From Lacinutrix sp. Bg11-31 (GTDB lineage Bacteria > Bacteroidota > Bacteroidia > Flavobacteriales > Flavobacteriaceae): a stretch of DNA of 64,000 nt. A model generated the notes under the pieces. It did not search any database. It was not told the origin of the DNA and saw nothing but the letters and a program-made list of their open reading frames with translations. Numbering within the stretch: the stretch's first letter is position 1; each line of letters begins with the position of its first letter. A program made the position numbers and the translations under genes. Of this stretch, positions 30,211-47,633 are shown piece by piece. The stretch covers positions 2,232,001-2,296,000 of the forward strand of contig NZ_CP025118.1 of the NCBI RefSeq assembly GCF_002831665.1. The letters run 5' to 3'.

Positions 30211-31008
30211 CTAAGTCCTATCCTTAATCCCATTAATCTTCTCAAAAGAAGCAACCATACCTTGAATTAAAGAAGAACTCAAACCTTGGTGCTCCATTTC
30301 GTTTAAACCTTCAATGGTACAACCTCTAGGTGTTGTTACTTTATCTATTTCTTCTTCTGGATGATTACCTGTAGTAATTAGTAAACCCGCAGCACCTTCT
30401 GCTGTATGCATTGCTAATAACTGAGCTTCCTTAGCATCAAAACCAAGCTGTATTGCTGCTTGCGTTGTAGCTCTAATTAATCGCATCCAAAAAGCAATTC
30501 CGCTTGCACAAACTACTGTTGCTGCTTGCATTTGCTTTTCTGGAATCACTAAAGTTGCACCCAAAAGATCGAATATTTTTATGGCAGTATTTAACTTTAA
30601 TTGTGCTTTTTCGTTACTACAAATACAGGTCATAGATTTACCAACTGCGATTGCTGTATTTGGCATGGCACGAATTACAGAATACTCAGCTCCAATAATA
30701 GCTTCAATTTTTTCTATAGAAAAACCTGTAATCGTAGAAATTAAAGTATGCTTCTGTGAAATAAACTGTTTGTTTTTACGCAATACAGCTCCTAAATGAC
30801 TTGGTTGAACAGCAAAAATAATAATATCTGAATTTGCTATTGCTTCTCCATTATCACTTGTAATAATTACTTTTTTTTCAGATTTTAATCCTTCCAATTC
30901 GTTAATATGACGCTTTGTTAAGTATAACGATGTCGTAATATCACTTGATAATAATCCTTTTGCGATAGATAACCCAAGGTTACCAACTCCTATAATTGCT
31001 ATTTTCAT
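30211..31008 (-). CDS. proC: Pyrroline-5-carboxylate reductase, second copy
   Basis: 265 residues. Family reaction: reduction of pyrroline-5-carboxylate to proline with NAD(P)H. The nucleotide motif IAIIGVGNLGLSIAKGL and the C-terminal helical signature (VTTPRGCTIEGLNEME) are intact. It closes the arginine gene string, 133 bases after argH, and is a paralog of the proC at 36447-37247. The C-terminal halves of the two are nearly identical in protein but differ at many synonymous sites in DNA, so this is an old duplication with both copies under selection, not a recent one. Confidence 0.9.
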   Translation of the reverse strand: MKIAIIGVGNLGLSIAKGLLSSDITTSLYLTKRHINELEGLKSEKKVIITSDNGEAIANSDIIIFAVQPSHLGAVLRKNKQFISQKHTLISTITGFSIEKIEAIIGAEYSVIRAMPNTAIAVGKSMTCICSNEKAQLKLNTAIKIFDLLGATLVIPEKQMQAATVVCASGIAFWMRLIRATTQAAIQLGFDAKEAQLLAMHTAEGAAGLLITTGNHPEEEIDKVTTPRGCTIEGLNEMEHQGLSSSLIQGMVASFEKINGIKDRT

Positions 31009-31024
31009 AAAATTTATTTTTTCT

Positions 31025-31043
31025 TTTCCGCAAAGACGGAAAT
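31025..31043. repeat. Short hairpin between argH and proC
   Basis: TTCCG, loop CAAAGA, CGGAA. Same style as the other intercistronic hairpins of the window (14831, 42012, 53089). Confidence 0.4.
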
Positions 31044-31141
31044 CTCTTTAAATTAAAATTAATGTAATTTGACTGCTATGTCGAACCTAAAAAAAATCAG
31101 GTAGACAAAATTCTGCTTTTCTTCAAAACCAAAGGTAACTT

Positions 31142-32416
31142 CTATTTCGGAAACTTTTCTCTAATGTTATCCAAACACAAATTACCAATACTACCAACAT
31201 GTGTATGTTTTTTAGATGTGTCTGGCTTATATGTTCCGTTTTCAACCTCACCTCCTATTTTTTGATATGCTTCTCTAAAAGGCATACCTCCAACAACCAA
31301 TGTATTAATATTATCTACCGTAAAAAGGTATTGATATTTAGCATCGTTTAAGTCAATATGTTTTACTATAACTTGTTGAATAGCGTAATTAAAAATATCT
31401 AATAAATCTTTCACATCTTCAATTGCAGCAATTATATTTTCTTTTAACAACTGAAAATCTCTGTGATAACCACTTGGCAAATTATTTGTAATTAACACCA
31501 TTTCGGTATGCAAGGCTTGTATTTTATTAGCTTTTCCTCTAATAAGCTCAAACACATCAGGATTCTTTTTGTGTGGCATAATACTACTTCCTGTTGTTAG
31601 CTCGTCTGGGAACGCTATAAAGCCAAAATTCTGACTATTATACACGCAAATATCCATTGCAAAACGCGCTAATGTATTACACACACTTCCTAAAGCTAAA
31701 GCAATAGTACGCTCGCTTTTACCTCTACTCATTTGCGCTGCAACAACGTTATATTTTAAAGTTGAAAAGCCCAATTCTTTAGTCGTTAATTCTCTATCAA
31801 TAGGAAATGAACTTCCATAACCAGCCGCAGAACCTAACGGATTTTGGTCTACCGTTTGTATAGCTGCATTTAACAAGTATACATCGTCAATTAATACTTC
31901 TGCATACGCAGAAAACCATAATCCAAATGATGATGGCATTGCTACCTGTAAATGTGTATAACCAGGAAGCAGAGCTTCTTTATTAGTCTCAGCCAGATCT
32001 AAAAGTGTATCAAAAAACATTTTTGTTTTAGCACTAATTTCTTTTAAATTTTCTTTATAATAAAGATGAAGCGCTACTAAAACTTGATCATTTCTAGAAC
32101 GTGCTGTATGAATTTTTTTCCCAACATCACCTAATGTTTTTGTTAGCTCATATTCAATTTTAGAGTGCACATCTTCAAAAGACTCTTCTATTACAAATGT
32201 TCCATTTTCTATGGTTTCCGCAATAGCGTTTAATCCGCTTTTAAGTTGTTTTAATTCTTCCGAAGAAATTATATCTATAGATTCTAACATAATAGCATGC
32301 GCTAAGGATGCTTGTACATCGTACTTTGCAATATGTAAATCAATTTCCCTATCGTTACCAACAGTAAACTGTTCTATTTTTTTATCGATACTTATTCCTT
32401 TGTCCCAGAGTTTCAT
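31142..32416 (-). CDS. argH: Argininosuccinate lyase
   Basis: Splits argininosuccinate to arginine and fumarate, the last step. From the chosen start (MKLWDKGISIDK) it has 424 residues. A GTG at 32452 would add 12 residues, but those codons lie at the edge of an intergenic repeat, so 32416 is preferred. The superfamily signature GSSIMPHKKNPD and the substrate motif HTARSRNDQV are present. The protein is shorter than the usual 450-460 residues at the C-terminus, as is seen in related bacteria. Confidence 0.95.
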   Translation of the reverse strand: MKLWDKGISIDKKIEQFTVGNDREIDLHIAKYDVQASLAHAIMLESIDIISSEELKQLKSGLNAIAETIENGTFVIEESFEDVHSKIEYELTKTLGDVGKKIHTARSRNDQVLVALHLYYKENLKEISAKTKMFFDTLLDLAETNKEALLPGYTHLQVAMPSSFGLWFSAYAEVLIDDVYLLNAAIQTVDQNPLGSAAGYGSSFPIDRELTTKELGFSTLKYNVVAAQMSRGKSERTIALALGSVCNTLARFAMDICVYNSQNFGFIAFPDELTTGSSIMPHKKNPDVFELIRGKANKIQALHTEMVLITNNLPSGYHRDFQLLKENIIAAIEDVKDLLDIFNYAIQQVIVKHIDLNDAKYQYLFTVDNINTLVVGGMPFREAYQKIGGEVENGTYKPDTSKKHTHVGSIGNLCLDNIREKFPK

Positions 32417-32446
32417 GTTCTTTAGTTTATCTGTTAATTTATTCCT

Positions 32447-32547
32447 TGTCACTTCGAGTTATTCTGATTTTTTATCAGAATTCTATCGAGAAGTATTTTC
32501 TTGTTTTCGATACATTTCTCCTTGCAATCGAAACACTCAAACTGACA
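32447..32547. repeat. TGTCA...TCGAG...TGACA hairpin repeat, copy 1
   Basis: Begins TGTCACTTCGAG and ends CACTCAAACTGACA, with inner ATCGAGAA / TTTTCGATA arms. It fills the gap between argE and argH. Related copies are at 37308-37361, 48575-48678 and 52462-52577. Confidence 0.65.
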
Positions 32548-32553
32548 AAAATG

Positions 32554-33615
32554 CTACAATACTTTTTCAAGTAATTCAATATAAATTTTAATACCTTCTT
32601 CTATTTCATTCAAATAAATAAACTCATCTGCAGAATGTGATCGAGTGCTATCTCCTGGCCCTAATTTTAACGATGGACAATTCAAAACTGCTTGATCGGA
32701 TAATGTTGGCGAACCATACGTGCTCCTGCCAATTTCTACTCCTGCAACCACCAATGGATGATCGATTGGAATAGACGATGAATTTAATTTTATGCTTCGT
32801 GGAATGATACTACCACAAGGCGATTCTTTTTGTAAAATATTCACGATTTCTTGGTTTGAATATTTGTCGTTAACACGAACATCTACAACTAATTTTACAT
32901 CTGCAGGAACTGCATTATGCTGTTTTCCTGCATTAATTTGAGTAATAGTCATTTTTACTTCGCCTAAGGCTTCAGATCTTTTATCAAACTTGTAATTTTT
33001 AAACCATTCTAAAACTGAAATCGTATTATAAATAGCATTATCGTTATTTGGATGTGCTGCATGACCTGGCGTTCCTTTTACTACTGCATCGAACACAACT
33101 AAACCTTTTTCGGCAACTGCTAAATTCATTAAAGTTGGTTCACCAACAATAGCAACATCTACTTTTGGGATAACACTTAACATACTATTTAAACCATTAT
33201 CTCCACTACTCTCTTCTTCTGCAGAAGCAACAATAACAATATTATAATTTAAACCTTTTTTGTTGTAGAAATACGCAAACGTTGCCAACAAACTTACTAA
33301 ACATCCTCCAGCATCATTACTTCCTAAACCATATAATTTCCCATCCTCTACAATAGCTTTAAATGGGTCTTTAGTGTAACCATTATTGGGCTTTACAGTA
33401 TCGTGATGGGAGTTTAATAATAAAGTTTGCTTACTATCATCAAAATATTTATTGGTTGCCCAAACATTATGCTGCGTACGATTAAAAGGAATGTTTTGTT
33501 CGATAAACCACTGCTCGATATGCGCTGCTGCTGGACCTTCTTCTGAAGAAAAAGATTGCGTTTCTATAAGCTGCTTTAATAAAGCAATTGCTTTTGTTGT
33601 TAGTTTTTCTATCAT
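32554..33615 (-). CDS. argE: Acylornithine deacylase, M20 metallopeptidase family
   Basis: 353 residues. The zinc-binding pattern is intact: LLNSHHDTVKP, GSNDAGGC, and the catalytic acid pair in SAEEESSGDNG. The dimerisation lid domain is in the middle (PGHAAHPNN). Context sets the substrate: an N-acylornithine or N-acylcitrulline. Because the carbamoyltransferase here is of the acyl-ornithine type, the true substrate is probably an acylcitrulline. It overlaps argB by 4 bases. Confidence 0.88.
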   Translation of the reverse strand: MIEKLTTKAIALLKQLIETQSFSSEEGPAAAHIEQWFIEQNIPFNRTQHNVWATNKYFDDSKQTLLLNSHHDTVKPNNGYTKDPFKAIVEDGKLYGLGSNDAGGCLVSLLATFAYFYNKKGLNYNIVIVASAEEESSGDNGLNSMLSVIPKVDVAIVGEPTLMNLAVAEKGLVVFDAVVKGTPGHAAHPNNDNAIYNTISVLEWFKNYKFDKRSEALGEVKMTITQINAGKQHNAVPADVKLVVDVRVNDKYSNQEIVNILQKESPCGSIIPRSIKLNSSSIPIDHPLVVAGVEIGRSTYGSPTLSDQAVLNCPSLKLGPGDSTRSHSADEFIYLNEIEEGIKIYIELLEKVL

Positions 33616-34388
33616 TTGGTAATGGTTGTGTGTTTACTATTTGTCTTAAAAAGCATGCTTGATTTCCCAATACAAACTTTTTGCACTTGATGATTTACAG
33701 CATGAAAACAATTGTTTAATTTTGGTAACATACCTTCATAAATAATTCCGTTTTCGATTAATGACGGATAGCTTTCTGTGTTGATATTTTCGATAACAGA
33801 ATCGTCATTATCCACATTTTCTAAAACACCATTTTTTTCGAAACAATAATATAATTCGGTGTTATAAATTGAAGCAAAGCCAATTGCTAATTCCGAAGAA
33901 ATAGTATCTGCATTAGTATTTAACAACTGCCCTTTTCCATCGTGCGTAATAGCACAAAAAACAGGAGTCACATTATTATTTAAAAGCAATTCTAACGTAG
34001 CTGTATTTACTTGTTTTACATCTCCCGCAAAACCATAATCGATAGGCTTTGATGGTCTCAAATCTGAAACAATAGTATTACCGTCTGCTCCCGAAAAACC
34101 AATTGAATTACATTTATTAGCTTGTAATTGCGCTACAATATTCTTATTAATTTTTCCTGCATAAACCATAGTAATAACATCCAACGTTTCTTGATCTGTA
34201 ATACGTCTTCCATCAATCATTTTAACCTCAACTTGCATTTGTTGCGCTAATTTTGTTGCCAACTTTCCACCTCCATGAACTAAGATTTTAGGAGAATCTA
34301 TAGTTGAGAAGGCTTTTAGAAATTGTTTCAAGACAGTATCATCATCGATGATGTTTCCTCCAATTTTTATGATTTTTAGTGTTTTCAT
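33612..34388 (-). CDS. argB: Acetylglutamate (acylglutamate) kinase
   Basis: 258 residues. Phosphorylates N-acylglutamate. The N-terminal IIKIGGNIIDD and ILVHGGGKLATKLAQ motifs bind phosphate and substrate. The length matches the arginine-insensitive form: it lacks the extra N-terminal helix of feedback-inhibited kinases, so control may lie in transcription. Two bases after argF' and overlapping argE. Confidence 0.94.
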   Translation of the reverse strand: MKTLKIIKIGGNIIDDDTVLKQFLKAFSTIDSPKILVHGGGKLATKLAQQMQVEVKMIDGRRITDQETLDVITMVYAGKINKNIVAQLQANKCNSIGFSGADGNTIVSDLRPSKPIDYGFAGDVKQVNTATLELLLNNNVTPVFCAITHDGKGQLLNTNADTISSELAIGFASIYNTELYYCFEKNGVLENVDNDDSVIENINTESYPSLIENGIIYEGMLPKLNNCFHAVNHQVQKVCIGKSSMLFKTNSKHTTITK

Positions 34389-34390
34389 AA

Positions 34391-35326
34391 TTATAAATCC
34401 TCTAAAATTTGTTTCAGTACTATTTGCGCAGCAAATGTTCTGTTATTTGCCTGCTTAATTACTACTGAATTATCACCATCTAAAACAGCATCTTCTACTA
34501 CAACATTTCTTCTAACTGGTAAACAATGCATAAATTTTGCTTGCCCTAGTTTGGCTTTAGTCATCATCCAATTTTTATCTTGACTTAAAATTTTTCCGTA
34601 ATCGCTATAGCTACTCCAGTTTTTAACGTAAATAAAATCTGCATCTTTTAAAGCATCTTCTTGGTTGTAGTTTATTGGTGTATTCTTCGTTATTTCCTGT
34701 CTCAACTCATAACCTTCTGGATGTGTAATTATTAAATTTACATCCATATTTTGCATCATTCCTACAAATGAATTGGCAACAGCTTGTGGTAATGCTTTTG
34801 GATGTGGTGCCCAAGACAATACTACTTTTGGTTTTACTTTTTTAGTTAGTTCACTAATAGTAATCGCATCTGTTAACGCTTGTAAAGGATGAGCAGTTGC
34901 GCTTTCCATATTTACTATTGGCACAGTTGCGTATTTTATAAAGCTATTTATTACAAATTCGCTTTCGTCTTTTTGTTTATCTAATAAACCTGGAAATGCT
35001 CTAACAGCAATAACATCTGCATATTGCGAAATAACTTGCGCTGCTTCTTTTATATGCTCAGACGTATTAGCGTTCATAACTGTTCCATCTTCAAACTCTA
35101 GATTCCATGCATCATTTACATTTAAAATAACGACATCCATACCAAGATTTTTTGCTGCTTTTTCGGTACTCAATCGTGTTCGTAAACTAGAATTAAAGAA
35201 CAACATCACCAAGGTTTTGTTTTTTCCTAAGTCTGAAAACTGAAAAGGATTCGCTTTTAATAAAATAGCTTCCTTTATGGTTTCCTTGAGATTTCCTATA
35301 TCTTTTATGTTTGTATATTTTTTCAT
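34391..35326 (-). CDS. argF': N-acylornithine carbamoyltransferase (acetyl or succinyl type)
   Basis: 311 residues. It transfers the carbamoyl group to an acylated ornithine, not to free ornithine. The carbamoyl-phosphate motif is FFNSSLRTR (44-52), then MHCLPVRRN near the C-terminus. It closely resembles the Bacteroides succinylornithine enzyme as I remember it. In that enzyme the residue that sets succinyl specificity is Pro90 (in KPEH); the acetylornithine enzyme of Xanthomonas has Glu. Here the aligned residue is S89 in NANTSEH, so the acyl group cannot be assigned. The start overlaps the argD stop by one base. Confidence 0.9.
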   Translation of the reverse strand: MKKYTNIKDIGNLKETIKEAILLKANPFQFSDLGKNKTLVMLFFNSSLRTRLSTEKAAKNLGMDVVILNVNDAWNLEFEDGTVMNANTSEHIKEAAQVISQYADVIAVRAFPGLLDKQKDESEFVINSFIKYATVPIVNMESATAHPLQALTDAITISELTKKVKPKVVLSWAPHPKALPQAVANSFVGMMQNMDVNLIITHPEGYELRQEITKNTPINYNQEDALKDADFIYVKNWSSYSDYGKILSQDKNWMMTKAKLGQAKFMHCLPVRRNVVVEDAVLDGDNSVVIKQANNRTFAAQIVLKQILEDL

Positions 35327-36450
35327 TATAACTCACTTTTTAAAGCCTCAAAAAACAAATCGACATGTTCTTTTTTAATCGTTAATGGCGGAAGGATTCT
35401 TAATAAGTTAGGATTCTTAGCGCTTCCTGTAAATATTTTATGTGTGAAAATTAGTTTTTTGCGCAACTCTGCAATTGGAAAATCAAATTCCAATCCTAAC
35501 ATTAAACCACGTCCTTTTATATTTTTTATTGCTGAAATTTCTTTTGCTCTTTCAATAAAATAAGCTGAAATTTCTTTTACATTTTGCATGAGTTTTTCAT
35601 CTTCTATAACCTCTAAAACTGTCGATGATGCTACACACGCTAAATGATTTCCGCCAAATGTTGTACCTAACAAACCAAAAGACGCTTTAATATTTGGGTG
35701 AATTAAAATACCACCAATTGGAAAACCATTTCCCATACCTTTGGCGATAGAAATTATATCTGGAGTCACATTATACTTCTGGAATGCAAAAAAATCACCA
35801 GTTCTTCCAAAACCAGATTGCACCTCATCTGCAATAAAACAAGCATTGTATTTTTTACACAAGGCTTCAATACCTATATAAAATTCTGCTGTGCTTTCAT
35901 CCAATCCACCAACTCCTTGAATGCACTCTATAATTACAGCGCAAACATCGTTTTTTACAAGTGCTTTTTCTAAAGCTATTAAATCTCCTAATTCTAAAAT
36001 CTCAACCTCTTGCTGCGCGTTAATAGGTGCAATTATTTTAGCATTATCTGTTGCTGCAACAGCTGCAGATGTACGACCATGAAATCCATTTTTAAAAGCC
36101 ACAATTTTTTTCTTTCCGTTATAGAATGACGCTAGCTTTAATGCGTTTTCATTGGCTTCTGCTCCAGAATTACATAAAAATAACTGATAATCTTTACAAC
36201 CTGACAACTTACCTAACTTATTAGCTAACTCAACTTGTAATGGATTTTGAATTGAGTTGCTATAAAAACCTAGCTTAGCAACTTGCTCGCTAATATTCTT
36301 AACATATTTAGGATGCGAGTGTCCAATAGAAATCACTGCGTGACCTCCATATAAATCTAAATATCTGGTGTTGTTTTCATCAAAAACAAAAACATCTTCT
36401 GCTTTTATAGGCGTGATGTCGAATAATGGATACACGTTGAATAAATTCAT
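35326..36450 (-). CDS. argD: Acylornithine aminotransferase
   Basis: 374 residues. A PLP enzyme that makes N-acylornithine from the semialdehyde. GGHAVISIGHSHP near the N-terminus, the cofactor-contact NSGAEANENALKLA, and the Schiff-base lysine in ISIAKGMGNGFPIG are present. Start MNLFNVYPLFDI overlaps the proC stop by 4 bases, showing translational coupling in the operon. Confidence 0.95.
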   Translation of the reverse strand: MNLFNVYPLFDITPIKAEDVFVFDENNTRYLDLYGGHAVISIGHSHPKYVKNISEQVAKLGFYSNSIQNPLQVELANKLGKLSGCKDYQLFLCNSGAEANENALKLASFYNGKKKIVAFKNGFHGRTSAAVAATDNAKIIAPINAQQEVEILELGDLIALEKALVKNDVCAVIIECIQGVGGLDESTAEFYIGIEALCKKYNACFIADEVQSGFGRTGDFFAFQKYNVTPDIISIAKGMGNGFPIGGILIHPNIKASFGLLGTTFGGNHLACVASSTVLEVIEDEKLMQNVKEISAYFIERAKEISAIKNIKGRGLMLGLEFDFPIAELRKKLIFTHKIFTGSAKNPNLLRILPPLTIKKEHVDLFFEALKSEL

Positions 36451-37247
36451 ATTTGATCTTGTTTGATGTTGTTAATTTTATTAAAAGAAGTAATCATTCC
36501 TTGAATTAAAGAAGAACTTAGTCCTTTATGTTCCATTTCGTTTAAACCTTCAATAGTGCAGCCTTTTGGTGTTGTTACGCGATCTATTTCCTCCTCTGGA
36601 TGATTTCCATTTGTAATTAACAAACTCGCTGCTCCTTCACTTGTATACATTGCCAATTCTTGCGCTTCTTTTGCATCGAAACCTAACTGAATAGCCGCTT
36701 GTGTTGTTGCTCTAATCAAGCGCATCCAAAAGGCTACTCCACTTGCACAAACAACTGTTGCTGCCTGCATTTGGTTTTCTGGAATACTTAAAGAATGACC
36801 TAATCGATTAAAAATAGCTTCGGCAATTTTAATACGTTTTTTCCCTTGCGCGTTACTACACAAACAGGTCATAGATTTACCAACAGCAATTGCTGTATTT
36901 GGCATAGCACGAATTATAAATTTATCTATACCAACAATGGCTTCAATCTTAGGAATTAAGAAACCTGTTATTGTAGAAATAAGCACGTGTTTATCTGTTA
37001 AATACGATTTAACATCATTTAAAATAACTTCGAAATGAGAAGGTTGTACTGCAAAAATTATAATATCAGATTGCTTAACAGCCTCTGCATTATCTGTAGT
37101 TAAATACACATTTTTATAGCCATCAAATTCTTGAATATCTTCTAAATTTCTTTTAGTTAAATACAAACTTGTAATGGCATTATTAGTTATCAATCCTTTT
37201 GCAATGGATTTCCCTAAGTTCCCAGTTCCTATAATTGCTATTTTCAT
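36447..37247 (-). CDS. proC: Pyrroline-5-carboxylate reductase, first copy
   Basis: 266 residues. Rossmann motif IAIIGTGNLGKSIAKGL and signature VTTPKGCTIEGLNEME. It is embedded between argC and argD, overlapping argD by 4 bases. Semialdehydes of the proline and arginine routes are chemically alike, so a reductase inside the arginine operon may scavenge cyclised glutamate semialdehyde or simply tie proline synthesis to arginine control. The second copy is at 30211-31008. Confidence 0.92.
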   Translation of the reverse strand: MKIAIIGTGNLGKSIAKGLITNNAITSLYLTKRNLEDIQEFDGYKNVYLTTDNAEAVKQSDIIIFAVQPSHFEVILNDVKSYLTDKHVLISTITGFLIPKIEAIVGIDKFIIRAMPNTAIAVGKSMTCLCSNAQGKKRIKIAEAIFNRLGHSLSIPENQMQAATVVCASGVAFWMRLIRATTQAAIQLGFDAKEAQELAMYTSEGAASLLITNGNHPEEEIDRVTTPKGCTIEGLNEMEHKGLSSSLIQGMITSFNKINNIKQDQI

Positions 37248-37263
37248 AATTATTTATTTTTTT

Positions 37264-37391
37264 GGCGTTACCACAAGGGTCGCGCTTTCCACTATATCTT
37301 TTTTGTCTTGTTCTCGATACAAATTTGCTCATACTTCACAAATTCACTCGAACTGACACAAAAAAAAGGATGCCGTTCCAATCGCTAACGC
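37264..37391. repeat. GCGTTA...TAACGC repeat element, copy 2, carrying a nested hairpin repeat
   Basis: Starts GGCGTTACC and ends CGCTAACGC. It aligns, in opposite orientation, with 16849-16923. Its loop is expanded by a TCTCGATACAAATT...CACTCGAACTGACA segment (about 37308-37361) that belongs to the second repeat family. It fills the argC-proC gap. Confidence 0.75.
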
Positions 37392-37404
37392 AGCTGCAGT
37401 ACTT

Positions 37405-38388
37405 TTAAAAATAATTTGCTTTTAATTTTAAACCTTCAGATTCTTCAAAACCATACATTAAATTCATATTTTGGACCGCTTGTCCAGAAGCACCTTTTAA
37501 TAAATTATCAATGATACTTGTTACTAGTAATTTGTTTTCATGCTTATGTAAATGAAGAATACATTTATTAGTATTAACAACCTGTTTTAAATGAATCTCT
37601 TCATCTGAAACCACAGTAAAAGCAGCTTCTTTATAAAATTCTGAATACATTTTTTTAGCATCTTCTAAACTGCCTTCAAATTTGGTATAAAGTGTAGCAA
37701 AAATCCCTCTTGAAAAATCGCCTCGATTAGGCATAAAATTTATTTCTGAAGAGAAATCAGATTGTAATTGATTTACTGTCTGGTTAATTTCACCTAAATG
37801 CTGGTGTGTAAATGCTTTGTAATGCGAAAAATTATTATCTCTCCATGTAAAATGTGTAGTTGCAGATAATGATGTTCCTGCTCCAGTTGCCCCAGTTACT
37901 GCATTAATATGCACATCGTTTTTTAAAACTTTAGCTTTAGCTAATGGTAATAATGCAGATTGAATTGCTGTGGCAAAACAACCTGGATTTGCTATATAAT
38001 TAGCTTTTTTAATTGCCTCTTTATTTAATTCTGGCAAACCGTAAACAAATGTTTTACCTTCAAAAATCTCATCTTTATTCAATCTGAAATCATTACTTAA
38101 ATCAATAATTTTAGTGTTTTCTGAAAAGGTGTTTTTCTCTAAAAAGGCTTTTGAATTTCCATGTCCAAGACACAAGAATAACACATCTACTTCAGTATTT
38201 ATTTCGCTTGAAAACACTAAATCTGTACTGCCAATTAAATCCTGGTGTATCTTATATATTTTATTGCCTGCATTAGATGTACTGTATACAAAATTGAGGT
38301 TTACTTTATTATGATTTAACAACAACCTAATCAACTCACCAGCTGTATAACCTGCTCCACCAATGATTCCTGTTTCTAATTTTTTCAT
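37405..38388 (-). CDS. argC: N-acetyl-gamma-glutamyl-phosphate reductase
   Basis: 327 residues. Reduces the acylglutamyl phosphate to the semialdehyde. NADPH motif GIIGGAGYTAGELIRLL, catalytic cysteine in ANPGCFATAIQ, and the substrate-site motif NAVTGATGAGTSL. Full length for the type I family. It lies between argG (53 bases upstream) and proC (157 bases downstream, across a repeat element). Confidence 0.95.
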   Translation of the reverse strand: MKKLETGIIGGAGYTAGELIRLLLNHNKVNLNFVYSTSNAGNKIYKIHQDLIGSTDLVFSSEINTEVDVLFLCLGHGNSKAFLEKNTFSENTKIIDLSNDFRLNKDEIFEGKTFVYGLPELNKEAIKKANYIANPGCFATAIQSALLPLAKAKVLKNDVHINAVTGATGAGTSLSATTHFTWRDNNFSHYKAFTHQHLGEINQTVNQLQSDFSSEINFMPNRGDFSRGIFATLYTKFEGSLEDAKKMYSEFYKEAAFTVVSDEEIHLKQVVNTNKCILHLHKHENKLLVTSIIDNLLKGASGQAVQNMNLMYGFEESEGLKLKANYF

Positions 38389-38404
38389 TTTGATTCTTTT
38401 ACTT

Positions 38405-38433
38405 TGAGATTCTTCGCTTAGCTCTGAATGACA
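38405..38433. repeat. Short hairpin in the argG-argC gap
   Basis: GAGATTCTTCGCTTAGCTC followed by TGAATGACA. It ends in the AATGACA tail shared by other small hairpins here. Confidence 0.35.
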
Positions 38434-38441
38434 ATTAATCT

Positions 38442-39623
38442 TTAAGAGTTTACTTGTTGATAGATTTTATTTTGATTCCCTATAATTTTAATAAATCCTT
38501 TTGCCTCATCTGCAGTCCAACCTTTATTTTCTTCGCCATAACTTCCAAATTTTGCATTCATTAAATCGTGCTTAGAAATAATTCCATCTACGGTAAAATG
38601 ATATGGTTTAAGTGTTACAAAAACATCTCCAGAAACTTTATCTTGACTGCTCTGCAAAAAGGCCTCCATGTCTCGCATTACAGGATCTAAATACTGACCT
38701 TCATGTAGATGCATTCCGTAGAAACTTGATAGATAATCTTTGTGCTGTAATTGCCACTTGGTCAACGTATGCTTCTCTAATAAATGATGCGCTTTTATAG
38801 TAATTAATGCTGCTGCTGCTTCAAAACCAACACGTCCTTTAATACCTACAATAGTATCTCCAACATGAATATCTCTTCCAATAGCGTAAGCAGAAGCTAA
38901 ATTATTTAGAAGCTCTATGTTCTTTTCTGCAGAAGCTGCCTTTCCGTTTAAAGCGACTAATTCTCCTTTATCAAAACTTAATACCACCTTATCTTCTCCT
39001 TCTTTTTTTAATTGCGACGGATAAGCCGTTTCTGGTAATGGTTTTTCAGAAGTTAAAGTTTCTTCTCCACCAACACTTGTTCCCCAAAGTCCTTTGTTAA
39101 CAGAGTACTTTGCTTTTTCCCAAGAGGCTTCAATACCATTTTCTTTTAGGTAATCAATTTCTTGTTGTCTACTTAAACTTCCATCTCTAATTGGCGTGAT
39201 AATTTTAATATTAGGAGCTAAGGTTTGAAAAATCATATCAAAACGTACTTGATCATTTCCAGCTCCTGTACTACCATGTGCGATAAATTCGGCATCAATA
39301 CTTTTTGCGTATTCAATAATCTCGATAGCCTGAATAATACGCTCTGCACTTACAGATAATGGATACGAATTATTTTTAAGCACATTCCCAAAAATTAAAT
39401 ACTTTACAACTTTTTTATAAAAAGTGGCAACTGCGTCAATATTTTTATAGGTAGAAACACCCATTTTATATGCATTGCTTTCAATCTCTTTTATTTCTTC
39501 TGAAGTAAAACCTCCTGTATTTACACTAACAGCGTGCACATCGTATCCTGCCTTACTTAAACTTACTGCGCAATATGAAGTATCTAATCCTCCACTATAT
39601 GCTATAACTAGTTTTTTACTCAT
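38442..39623 (-). CDS. argG: Argininosuccinate synthase
   Basis: 393 residues. Joins citrulline and aspartate using ATP. The PP-loop AYSGGLDTSY at the N-terminus and the ATP-site THGSTGAGNDQVRF-type motif (here AHGSTGAGNDQVRFD) are present. It overlaps the preceding acyltransferase gene by 8 bases, so it is the second cistron of the operon. Confidence 0.96.
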   Translation of the reverse strand: MSKKLVIAYSGGLDTSYCAVSLSKAGYDVHAVSVNTGGFTSEEIKEIESNAYKMGVSTYKNIDAVATFYKKVVKYLIFGNVLKNNSYPLSVSAERIIQAIEIIEYAKSIDAEFIAHGSTGAGNDQVRFDMIFQTLAPNIKIITPIRDGSLSRQQEIDYLKENGIEASWEKAKYSVNKGLWGTSVGGEETLTSEKPLPETAYPSQLKKEGEDKVVLSFDKGELVALNGKAASAEKNIELLNNLASAYAIGRDIHVGDTIVGIKGRVGFEAAAALITIKAHHLLEKHTLTKWQLQHKDYLSSFYGMHLHEGQYLDPVMRDMEAFLQSSQDKVSGDVFVTLKPYHFTVDGIISKHDLMNAKFGSYGEENKGWTADEAKGFIKIIGNQNKIYQQVNS

Positions 39624-40245
39624 CTCTCTTTTCTTTTTTAAGGAACATAGATTGCTTAATGTTTTTCAATCTGGTCCATACTTTTTTATCATGATTATTT
39701 ACTTCTGGCTTTGTAACCTCCTTTTTAGAAGAATCATACAACATACCAGTACATAAGCACATTTTCTGCTCTGTTCTTGTTAAGACATCGAAATTTTTGC
39801 AAGTCTGACAGCCATTCCAAAAGGATTGATCGTCTGTTAATTCTGAAAACGTAACCGGTTTATAACCTAAATCACTATTCATTTTCATAACCGCTAAACC
39901 AGTAGTAATACTAAACACTTTCGCGTCTGGAAACTTGGTTCTAGAGTGCTCGAATATTCGTTGTTTAATCTGCTTGGCTAAACCCATATTTCTAAAATCT
40001 GGATGTACAATTAAACCAGAATTTGCAACAAATTTGCCATGACTCCATTGTTCGATATAGCAAAATCCAGCAAATTTATCATCATCTAAAGCGATAACAG
40101 CATTACCATTTTCCATTTTGGTAATGACGTATTCTGGTTTACGTTTTGCAATACCAGTTCCTCTAACTTGGGCAGCCTCTGCAATAGTTTCGCAAATAAT
40201 GTTTGCGTAAATACTATGCGATTTATTAGCAATAACAATTTCCAT
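39616..40245 (-). CDS. GNAT acyltransferase, candidate N-acylglutamate synthase
   Basis: 209 residues and the first structural gene of the arginine operon. The acetyl-CoA core is visible at about 75-130 (LIVHPDFRNMGLAKQIKQRI is the P-loop helix region). No classical argA and no argJ is seen in the window, and this operon has every other step, so it is the best candidate to acylate glutamate. A C-terminal extension carries two cysteine pairs, C146/C149 and C163/C165, resembling a small metal site. The activity itself is inferred from position; only the GNAT fold is read from sequence. Confidence 0.75.
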   Translation of the reverse strand: MEIVIANKSHSIYANIICETIAEAAQVRGTGIAKRKPEYVITKMENGNAVIALDDDKFAGFCYIEQWSHGKFVANSGLIVHPDFRNMGLAKQIKQRIFEHSRTKFPDAKVFSITTGLAVMKMNSDLGYKPVTFSELTDDQSFWNGCQTCKNFDVLTRTEQKMCLCTGMLYDSSKKEVTKPEVNNHDKKVWTRLKNIKQSMFLKKEKRDE

Positions 40246-40478
40246 TGTAATTGAGTTTTAAATTAAAAAATGTGATAATTTTTGTTTTTGAAAGCAGAAC
40301 CGGACTCACCTTAGTTCTATAAATAGAAGTACACCCTAAGGGCGACGACGGAAAATTGGACGTATGTACAACCAATTATTATTTCTAATAACTGTATTTA
40401 AAAATGTAAATATTTGTGATGGATTGTTCAATGTGAAAAAAAATAAAAACTATTAACTAAAAAGCTGAAGTATGCGTA
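40246..40478 (-). promoter_or_regulatory. Structured 5' leader RNA of the arginine operon
   Basis: A 233-base untranslated stretch between the Arg leader peptide and the first operon gene. On the minus strand it contains a hairpin AATTGG...CCAATT, the palindrome CCCTTAGGG, and TTCTATTTATAGAA nested inside CCTTA...TAAGG. CGTCGTC at 40344-40350 is the exact complement of GACGACG within the Arg codons at 40486-40492, 136 bases away. No hairpin followed directly by a T-run is obvious, so control might act on translation or through Rho. The mechanism is inferred. Confidence 0.5.
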
Positions 40479-40499
40479 TTAGCGACGTCGTCTGCGCAT
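40479..40499 (-). CDS. Arginine leader peptide (MRRRRR)
   Basis: A six-codon reading frame, ATG CGC AGA CGA CGT CGC TAA, encoding Met and five Arg. It is GC-rich in an AT-rich intergenic region and lies 233 bases upstream of the first gene of the arginine operon, on the same strand. Using four different Arg codons makes a stall depend on overall arginyl-tRNA supply. This is the hallmark of leader-peptide control, as known for trp, his and ilv operons. A weak promoter-like TAGATTTA is at 40546-40553. Translation is not shown by the sequence alone, but chance is an unlikely explanation. Confidence 0.8.
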   Translation of the reverse strand: MRRRRR

Positions 40500-40681
40500 T
40501 GGCAAACTTGTGGGTCTTTCGTTTTTATTTTTAATTAACATATAGTAAATCTATAAATTTATTTAATACTTAAGCTTATTAAATCTGATTATTAACTAAT
40601 TTTTATGTGATTCATAAAATTTTGACTGTTAGCTAATTATAATCGTGATTTTTATCAAAAAAAAAATAAAAAATATTCTAA

Positions 40682-45953: not shown

Positions 45954-47633
45954 TTATTCGTCGGTAATACATCCTTTAGATGCAGACGCTACCATTTTTG
46001 CGTATTTATATAAAATCCCTTTGTTATGTTTTAATGGCGGAGCAACCCATTTTGCTTTTCTTTCTGCTAATTCTTCTTCAGAAATTAAAACGTTTATTGA
46101 GTTATCTTCTGCACTAATTCTAATTTTATCACCAGTTTTTAATATCCCAATAGCGCCTCCAGATTGTGCTTCTGGTGTTATGTGTCCAACCACAAATCCG
46201 TGAGTTCCTCCAGAAAAACGACCATCAGTTATTAAAGCTACAGATTTACCTAATCCGGCTCCCATAATTAGAGACGTTGGCTTTAACATTTCTGGCATTC
46301 CCGGACCTCCTTTTGGACCTACATATCTAATTACAACAACATCACCACGCTCTACTTCTCCATTAGAAATACCTGTATTTGCTGCTTGTTCTCCATCATA
46401 AACCACTGCTTTTCCTTCAAAAAGCAATCCTTCATTTCCGGAAATTTTTGCTACAGCACCTTCTTCTGCAAGATTTCCATACATAATTTGAATATTTCCT
46501 GATGTTTTTAACGCTTTATCTTTTGGATAAATAACATCTTGATCTTCAAACTCCATTGCTTCAACATCTGCCAAATTCTCTGCTAATGTTTTTCCTGTAA
46601 CAGTTAGACAATCACCATGTAAATAACCATTATCTAATAAATATTTCATTATTGCTGGAGTACCTCCAACACTATGAACATCTTCCATTAAGTATTTTCC
46701 TGATGGCTTTAAGTCTGCAATTAAAGGTGTCCTATCGCTTACTTTTTGAAAATCTTCTAAAGTAAATTCGATATCTGCCGCATGTGCAATAGCTAAAAAG
46801 TGTAATACTGCATTAGTAGAACCACCTAATGCATTTACTAAAGCAATTGCATTTTCTAAAGCTTTTTTAGAAATAATATCTAGTGGTTTTAAATCTAATT
46901 CCAATAAGTTTTTAATTGCAATTGCAGTTCTTTCTGATTCTGATAGTTTATTAGGGTTTTCAGCTGGAATAGAAGAGTTATAAGGTAAAGCAAAACCCAT
47001 ACATTCTATCGCAGAAGCCATAGTGTTAGCGGTATACATACCACCACAAGCTCCTGCTCCTGGAATGGCTCTTTTTATGATTTCTCTATATTCTTCTTCT
47101 TCAATTTCTCCAGCTACCTTTTGACCTAAAGCCTCAAATGCTGATACTATATTTAGTTTTTTACCTTTATAATTTCCAGAAGCAATGGTACCACCATACA
47201 TCATAATTGATGGACGATTTAAACGCAACATGGCAATAACTGCTCCTGGCATATTCTTATCACAACCTACAACAGATATTAATGCATCGTAACTTTGCGC
47301 ATTCATAACAGTTTCAATAGAATCTGCGATTATATCCCTTGACGCTAATGAATAATTCATACCAGAGGTACCCATAGAAATACCGTCTGAAACACCAATA
47401 GTGTTAAATCCTAAACCGACTAAGCCAGCAATTTTACATTCTATTTTCACCTCTCCAGCCAATCCATTTAAATGCATATTACAAGGATTACCATCGTAAC
47501 CTGTACTTGCAATACCAATTTGCGCTTTCTGCATGTCTTCATCCGTCAAACCCACTGCATATAGCATTGCTTGTGATGCTGGTTGAGATTGGTCTTGTGT
47601 TAATCTGCTACTGTGTTTATTTAATTTACTCAT
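45954..47633 (-). CDS. ilvD: Dihydroxy-acid dehydratase
   Basis: 559 residues. Dehydrates the dihydroxy acids to the keto acids of valine and isoleucine with an Fe-S cluster. Cysteines in [14 protein letters not shown] and [15 protein letters not shown], and the C-terminal [15 protein letters not shown]. First structural gene of ilvDBNCA. A leader peptide and terminator precede it, so it is the direct target of attenuation. Confidence 0.96.

Follow-up and report, generated by a model that had tools for sequence, protein, structure and literature searches.

Attenuators of the classical ilv, trp and his kind combine a promoter-proximal leader frame, rich in codons for the end product and placed before a biosynthesis operon, with an intrinsic terminator and its U-tract. 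Arg codons also serve in leaders of other kinds. The Salmonella orf34-speF leader has a short upstream frame with consecutive Arg codons, and pausing of the ribosome when arginine is absent is reported to determine how the mRNA folds, with Rho and RNase G taking part in the readout (PMC6386406). In Staphylococcus aureus, rbfL-rbf has a leader peptide with Arg codons through which arginine is sensed via tRNA charging; this leader is reported to have eight residues and AGA/AGG codons, for which tRNA-Arg(UCU) is the reader, and to act by covering the ribosome site of the next gene (PMC13009471). The actinobacterial LEU element is a different case in the excerpts available, concerning leucine and leuA and having a base stem that involves the Shine-Dalgarno box (PMC1262725). 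Bacteroidota are described as naturally without a Shine-Dalgarno box (PMC6847099), and leaderless mRNAs are a minority in the two flavobacteria studied (PMC9723704, PMC6847099). For one flavobacterium, Flavobacterium psychrophilum, attenuation by leader peptides is stated to be strongly indicated upstream of amino-acid operons (PMC9723704). In the main texts of the open-licence literature, we found no arginine leader in Bacteroidota and no arginine control for Flavobacteriaceae that lack ArgR.

Here we describe a leader upstream of the arginine operon of Lacinutrix sp. Bg11-31 that probably works in cis as a leader-peptide sensor of arginine, via ribosome stalling. It resembles the classical attenuators in the position and codon content of its leader, but has two hairpins, H1 and H2, where those attenuators, including the ilv leader in the same window (the whole 64-kb stretch of DNA analysed), have an intrinsic terminator and U-tract. 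It differs from orf34-speF, which, in the passages available, controls ornithine decarboxylase and not arginine synthesis, has one leader and has no H1/H2 (PMC6386406); the HIRRT core of the orf34 DUF2618 peptide was present in 0 of 127 leader peptides here. Compared with rbfL, it uses CGY codons and has a gap of about 90 nt with hairpins. Judged from sequence, what appears to be new is that, in a family without ArgR, two Arg leaders in tandem, the first of them (LP1) predicted to be leaderless, are combined with a new RNA module and with no standard terminator.

The arginine codon run is the end of a longer leader frame

As the initial annotation reported, positions 40499-40479 of the minus strand read ATG CGC AGA CGA CGT CGC TAA, with four different Arg codons, and 233 nt separate the stop of this MRRRRR frame from the ATG of the first gene at 40245. 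The ten-gene arginine operon that it placed downstream is also there, the GNAT-led gene set being recovered by NCBIfam and PF00583 matches, although several of the NCBIfam matches used for naming score under the curated cut-off. The main features of the locus are as follows.

39616..40245, minus strand: first operon gene, GNAT acetyltransferase (PF00583; homologue in 197 of 299 family genomes)
30211..39623, minus strand: argG, argC, proC, argD, acetylornithine carbamoyltransferase, argB, argE/dapE-type deacylase, argH and proC (NCBIfam)
40546..40553, minus strand: Bacteroidota -7 promoter-like element TAGATTTA (TAnnTTTR), from sequence and spacing to the LP1 start
40479..40541, minus strand: LP1, first leader peptide, MLIKNKNERPTSLPMRRRRR-stop, which holds MRRRRR (40479-40499), from its open frame and Arg content
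40336..40431, minus strand: LP2, second leader peptide, TTG start, LNNPSQIFTFLNTVIRNNNWLYIRPIFRRRP-stop (ending IRPIFRRRP-stop), from frame openness and Arg content
40332..40344, minus strand: H1, CGCCC-UUA-GGGUG, made up of the terminal Arg and Pro codons of LP2 together with its stop, from model R2 and pair exchange
40296..40318, minus strand: H2, AGAACU-AA-GG-UGAGU-CC-GGUUCU, with a bulge and a UGNGU loop, from covariation and model R2

Two proC paralogues occur in this one operon (36447-37247 and 30211-31008, minus strand). At the gathering score, Rfam 15 gave no match in the arginine leader; its sole match in the window was a Flavo-1 RNA (RF01705) at 37274-37399 on the minus strand, within the operon between argC and proC.

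Across the six frames of the window, MRRRRR was the only run of at least five Arg codons. When 64 kb was simulated 200 times with a first-order Markov model, 7 simulations gave at least one such run (about 0.035), so the run is unusual, as had been claimed, but chance is not decisively excluded by this figure alone, and conservation settles the matter. For comparison, we read the DNA upstream of 110 GNAT matches (the window's own included), 80 named loci and two more, some named loci coming from the same genomes as other sampled loci. Identity reduction took these 192 upstreams to 177, of which the pattern placed 169 and missed 8; all tests across sequences ignore kinship. Leader starts were required to have a -7-like element, which gave 94 sequences of type A (91 of them used in the type A analyses), 33 called type B and 42 with none. 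Ten of the 33 type B calls were set aside by judgement (L013, L015, L025, L040, L059, L140, L149, L166, L194, L204); in most, the matched element lay inside the U-tract before LP2, while L194 may be a true single leader.

The frame of MRRRRR continues upstream without a stop as far as an ATG at 40541; it encodes the 20-residue LP1, of which MRRRRR is the C-terminal end. An internal ATG at that position was present in only 6 of 91 type A sequences, and a separate MRRRRR ORF, as initially annotated, was therefore rejected. That reading was right in kind, an Arg leader, but gave the wrong frame and extent and missed the second leader and the two downstream hairpins. The -7-like element (40553-40546) ends 4 nt upstream of the LP1 ATG, a spacing that was exactly 4 nt in 77 of 91 type A sequences; with no ORF selection, 77 of 152 ATGs located 0-14 nt behind such an element were at 4 nt. 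In the available account of F. johnsoniae, 4-5 nt separate the -7 element of probable promoters from the start site (PMC6847099). Because its start codon follows the -7-like element by 4 nt, the LP1 mRNA is predicted to be leaderless; the minority share of leaderless mRNAs in the two flavobacteria mentioned above speaks against this.

An Arg-rich leader frame upstream of the homologous operon was indeed found when relatives were aligned: LP1 contained RR in 86, RRR in 66 and RRRRR in 14 of 91 sequences, in frames picked partly by Arg content, and typically ended in Arg codons, as in MKNLKNKIRCTIPGLPVRSRRRF-stop. Over the 91 sequences, Arg accounted for 445 of 2014 codons in the LP1 frame, the two alternative frames having 42 and 88 of 1923; this comparison is biased, since LP1 was chosen for being open and in part for its Arg content. 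In other genera there is a single leader, directly behind the promoter, for example MKGQNYITTTISTTAQVRPFSPRRRRP-stop. The locus thus has a short promoter-proximal leader frame rich in codons for the regulated amino acid, as expected of an attenuator.

A second leader frame closes before the H2 hairpin

LP2 lies between LP1 and the hairpins, and its start column in relatives holds TTG, GTG or ATG, as read by eye. Over the 24 codons before H1 in 91 sequences, we counted one in-frame stop in 2184 codons, compared to 136 and 210 in 2093 codons of the other frames, and Arg occupied 303 of 2184 codons in frame versus 39 and 36 of 2093. These counts bear on the possibility that MRRRRR arose by chance or as a structural by-product of GC-rich stems that use Arg codons. 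Five-Arg runs do appear in some simulated windows, and both H1 and P1, a hairpin inside LP1, do use Arg codons, but the Arg codons are kept in frame across the 91 sequences, stops are avoided only in the frame of LP2, and the spacing from start codon to promoter element is fixed, making this explanation scarcely credible.

The leader frame closed before the H2 core in 168 of 169 sequences, versus 88 and 76 of 169 in the shifted frames. The stop was away from its usual codon in 32 of 169 leaders (two of which, L067 and L186, appear to be misplaced anchors), and 31 of these 32 also closed before the H2 core; such unusual ends, for example RRPLGV-stop and RRTFVRA-stop, retained H1-type pairing. 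H2 is therefore kept untranslated. A third frame starting from GUG/AUG inside H2 was rejected, as its lengths scatter (median 15 codons) and the +2 frame is equally open (median 19).

H1 and H2 form a covarying RNA module

H2 sits between LP2 and the first gene, 10-15 nt beyond H1, and was found by pattern in 104 of 110 loci, the invariance of the pattern positions being by construction. In these rows, selected with a pattern in which most of the loop is fixed, the UGNGU loop was present in 104 of 104 and the bulged A in 100 of 104; the bulge ends in A and is followed by two G-C pairs. The H1 stem has 4-5 bp (4 bp in 34 of 104). A first alignment gave only two pairs with RNAalifold because of bulge-length misalignment, and the resulting model, R1, was discarded. 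Model R2 was built from 35 of the 104 sequences, those having a two-nt bulge and a four-nt H1 loop.

Both hairpins show compensatory changes. In H1, a C-G pair is exchanged for A-U in 5 of 104 sequences and, in the model alignment, in 5 of 35, and in H2, GG/CC is replaced by GA/UC in 3 of 104. Over the 35 aligned sequences, 97.4% of H1 and H2 cells pair and 7 of 13 pairs are changed on both sides, 6 of 8 for H2 taken separately; the covariation score was reached by 0 of 500 shuffles. The G-C to A-U exchange inside H2 (3 of 104) would break a Shine-Dalgarno-like site, and H2 was rejected as such. It was likewise rejected as a terminator: at least five T in the 8 nt after H2 occurred in 13 of 104 sequences, under the 22% background.

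With the H2 loop and bulge as its most conserved part, albeit in pattern-chosen rows, the module could be taken for an arginine riboswitch or a protein-bound operator, the leader frames being there only incidentally. For a riboswitch, however, H2 is small, and the LP2 frame and its Arg codons are kept outside H1 and H2. Since that frame is kept and ends before H2 in 168 of 169 leaders, translation matters, and we regard such a riboswitch or operator as very improbable.

Further pairings were seen in the leader.

40490..40507, minus strand: P1, hairpin inside LP1 (GUUUGC/GCAGAC), ending in Arg codons, from the MFE fold
40373..40394, minus strand: H0, hairpin inside LP2, from the fold
40521..40532, minus strand: S0 5' arm, A-rich, LP1 codons 4-7, pairing with 40439-40450
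40439..40450, minus strand: S0 3' arm, U-rich tract immediately ahead of the LP2 start, pairing with 40521-40532

In the 91 sequences, the best stem near the end of LP1 averaged 5.46 bp versus 4.56 bp after codon shuffling, and the corresponding values for H0 were 6.78 and 5.28 bp. The native S0 duplex had -9.4 kcal/mol compared to -7.2 kcal/mol for arms swapped between species (91 sequences, kinship ignored), and 27.5% of swapped arms paired at least as well as native ones. The whole leader of the window folds little better than shuffles (z -1.04).

Standard terminators are rare in the arginine leaders

The initial annotation had taken the Arg run as the classic sign of ribosome-mediated control. 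The promoter-proximal leader and its Arg codons bear this out, but only 4 of 169 leaders have an intrinsic terminator of the standard form (stem of at least 6, 6 of 8 T), located at H1 in three cases, though the ilv leader in the same window passes the same criterion. That leader, MKKQVINIISIISIVIISRSQGML-stop (8 Ile; 47927-47853, minus strand), directly follows TATATTTG and lies upstream of the ilvD operon, whose first gene is ilvD (45954-47633, minus strand; branched-chain gene names assigned by eye). Its terminator, AAGCCTTCC-TTAATTTC-GGAAGGCTTTTTTT, comes directly after the leader, making it a classical attenuator.

A weaker terminator scan of the window does flag H1, with CGCCCTTAGGGTG followed by TACTTCTATT (1 found versus 0.1 in shuffles), and at least five T in the 8 nt after H1 occurred in 57 of 104 leaders versus 22% of random positions. 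H1 might thus be the intrinsic terminator of a classical attenuator in which a stalled ribosome covers the 5' arm of H1 directly, no antiterminator being needed. There is a parallel in Actinobacteria, where, in the available part of that description, runs of Ile, Val and Leu codons overlap terminators before ilvB (PMC1262725). We nevertheless consider this arrangement unlikely; H1 has only 4-5 bp, few leaders qualify where the ilv leader passes, and the conservation of H2 would go unexplained.

The fold of the window suggested an antiterminator hairpin between the linker and the H2 5' arm, which was rejected for showing no excess over shuffled or swapped linkers, and RNAalifold on two clade alignments found no conserved pairing of H2 to the start of the first gene. 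By elimination, and by analogy with speF, the readout may instead be termination of the Rho type or decay of the mRNA, with a factor binding H2, a tentative proposal whose odds we would put well short of even.

Codon content points to tRNA charging

Among 20 genes of the window, AGA is the commonest Arg codon (125 of 267), and it made up 359 of 559 Arg codons in the GNAT genes of the 80 named loci. In the leaders, by contrast, CGC and CGT together contributed 289 of 384 Arg codons in LP1, 209 of 274 in LP2 and 75 of 76 in 23 sequences with a single leader; the AGA counts were 43 of 384, 11 of 274 and 1 of 76, respectively. With leaders rich in CGY and genes rich in AGA, the sensor points to the tRNA that reads CGU/CGC, which we take to be tRNA-Arg(ICG). 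The preference for CGY could partly stem from the RNA stems.

The leader peptides themselves drift. Clear purifying selection on their sequence was not detected, amino-acid changes being close to random placement, and the synonymous excess was small (21.8% versus 17.6% expected for LP1, 20.6% versus 16.7% for LP2), rising to 32% versus 22% in the last 8 codons of LP1. Given this drift and the varied stops, selection appears to see codons and RNA more than the finished peptide. A frame and Arg codons that are kept in a weakly constrained peptide favour codon sensing, that is, tRNA charging, over nascent-peptide arrest, while the small synonymous excess does not exclude some selection at the peptide level.

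Arrest of the ribosome by the RRP-stop end of the leader in response to free arginine deserves mention, as TnaC also ends in RP-stop. Of 169 leaders, 161 have Pro at codon +1, 85 have Phe at -3 and 51 have Pro at -2, where it is encoded by all four Pro codons; the small synonymous excess is in line with arrest too. On the other hand, the 32 leaders that stop elsewhere, with the two apparently misplaced anchors counted among them, have differing ends and keep H1-type pairing, and amino-acid changes fall nearly at random. Peptide arrest of this kind is highly unlikely, and we favour codon sensing.

The module is widespread in the Flavobacteriaceae

In the window, model R2 matched 40294-40350, covering H1 and H2, with an E-value of 4e-13, and this was the only match in the genome at E <= 1. 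All 80 named loci matched, in every case in the DNA ahead of the GNAT gene, as did 78 of the 80 loci L031-L110, 24 of which had helped build R2. Five of the 8 upstreams missed by the pattern (L043, L047, L147, L185 and L190) also matched, L047 weakly (E 0.0019). Among 299 Flavobacteriaceae genomes, 181 had a match, at one place each at E <= 0.01, though two of these (G074 and G254; E 0.005-0.009) are weak and may be chance, and 118 had none; in the genus of the window, 10 of 13 genomes matched and 3 did not. Wherever the module was present and the surrounding DNA was read, it preceded the arginine operon. This includes G084 and G152, where the first gene encodes another protein, yet the module still precedes argG-argC. 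The replacement first genes (L214:854-1438 and L215:955-1548) are 48% identical to each other; a GNAT domain was found in L215 only, and the G084 first protein had no similarity to the GNAT of the window.

A phylum sample of 395 genomes gave 23 matches to R2, 16 inside the family and 7 weak ones outside. Occurrence outside the family was rejected, these 7 having E-values of 0.025-0.08, within chance, with further weak ones at E 0.02-1. None of 12 argG loci from the genus Flavobacterium matched R2, and the available passages on F. psychrophilum name no arginine leader (PMC9723704); among the phylum-sample misses, 19 genomes of genus g127, inferred from its size and number of species to be Flavobacterium, were also without a match. 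The Flavobacterium-type arginine leader, MNKISLHITSLSRTNSPITSPEVRMLSL-stop and its kin, has 2-3 CGG codons in 11 of 11 loci (L218-L226, L228, L229) and no H1/H2. Beyond the family, a full-length argG match was found in 8 of 20 order-level genomes; in 3 of these 8, two from one genus, an Arg-rich frame lies no more than about 120 nt upstream of the GNAT gene. These leaders (L233 and L235 of family f2, L239 of family f15), for example VINTIAHTNITPAGFPTRRCAMNLRRRRPVRR-stop, precede GNAT-argG and have no H2-like site. With Arg-rich frames beyond the family and no H2, the Arg leader would either predate the family or have arisen repeatedly, and H1/H2 seems to have originated within the family.

The suggestion that an ArgR is lacking also held up. 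PF01316 had no match in the Lacinutrix genome and matched 2 of 299 family genomes, one just over the cut-off; as controls, Bacteroides ihuae and E. coli gave matches.

Discussion

We propose the following course for sensing by leader translation. When charged CGU/CGC-reading tRNA is low, ribosomes would stall on the leader Arg codons; with ample arginine they would go on to the stop codon that lies shortly ahead of H2. Depending on whether ribosomes have stalled or finished, H1 would be left in one state or another beside an H2 that is always untranslated, and this would affect whether the long transcript of the operon is completed or retained. The most likely route would be Rho-type termination or mRNA decay, as for Salmonella orf34-speF, and less likely H1 as a weak terminator. 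In the two-leader type, S0 may join the LP1 region to the U-rich entry to LP2, and translation of LP1 would probably also set LP2 initiation. Whether this amounts to a new Bacteroidota class of control, in which tandem Arg leaders, the first leaderless, are joined to the module and a factor reading H2, not a terminator, decides mRNA fate and replaces the missing ArgR, is a bolder idea, which we consider possible but the less probable outcome.

The analysis defines a testable cis element in 181 of 299 sampled family genomes and a covarying RNA family without an Rfam 15 match, and describes an arginine leader system without the standard terminator that the neighbouring ilv operon uses. The inversion of CGY for AGA bears on which tRNA a sensor should read, and LP1 would provide a naturally occurring test case for the translation of leaderless mRNA in a phylum with no reliance on Shine-Dalgarno pairing. 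For the family, the H2 hairpin points to a putative reader factor.
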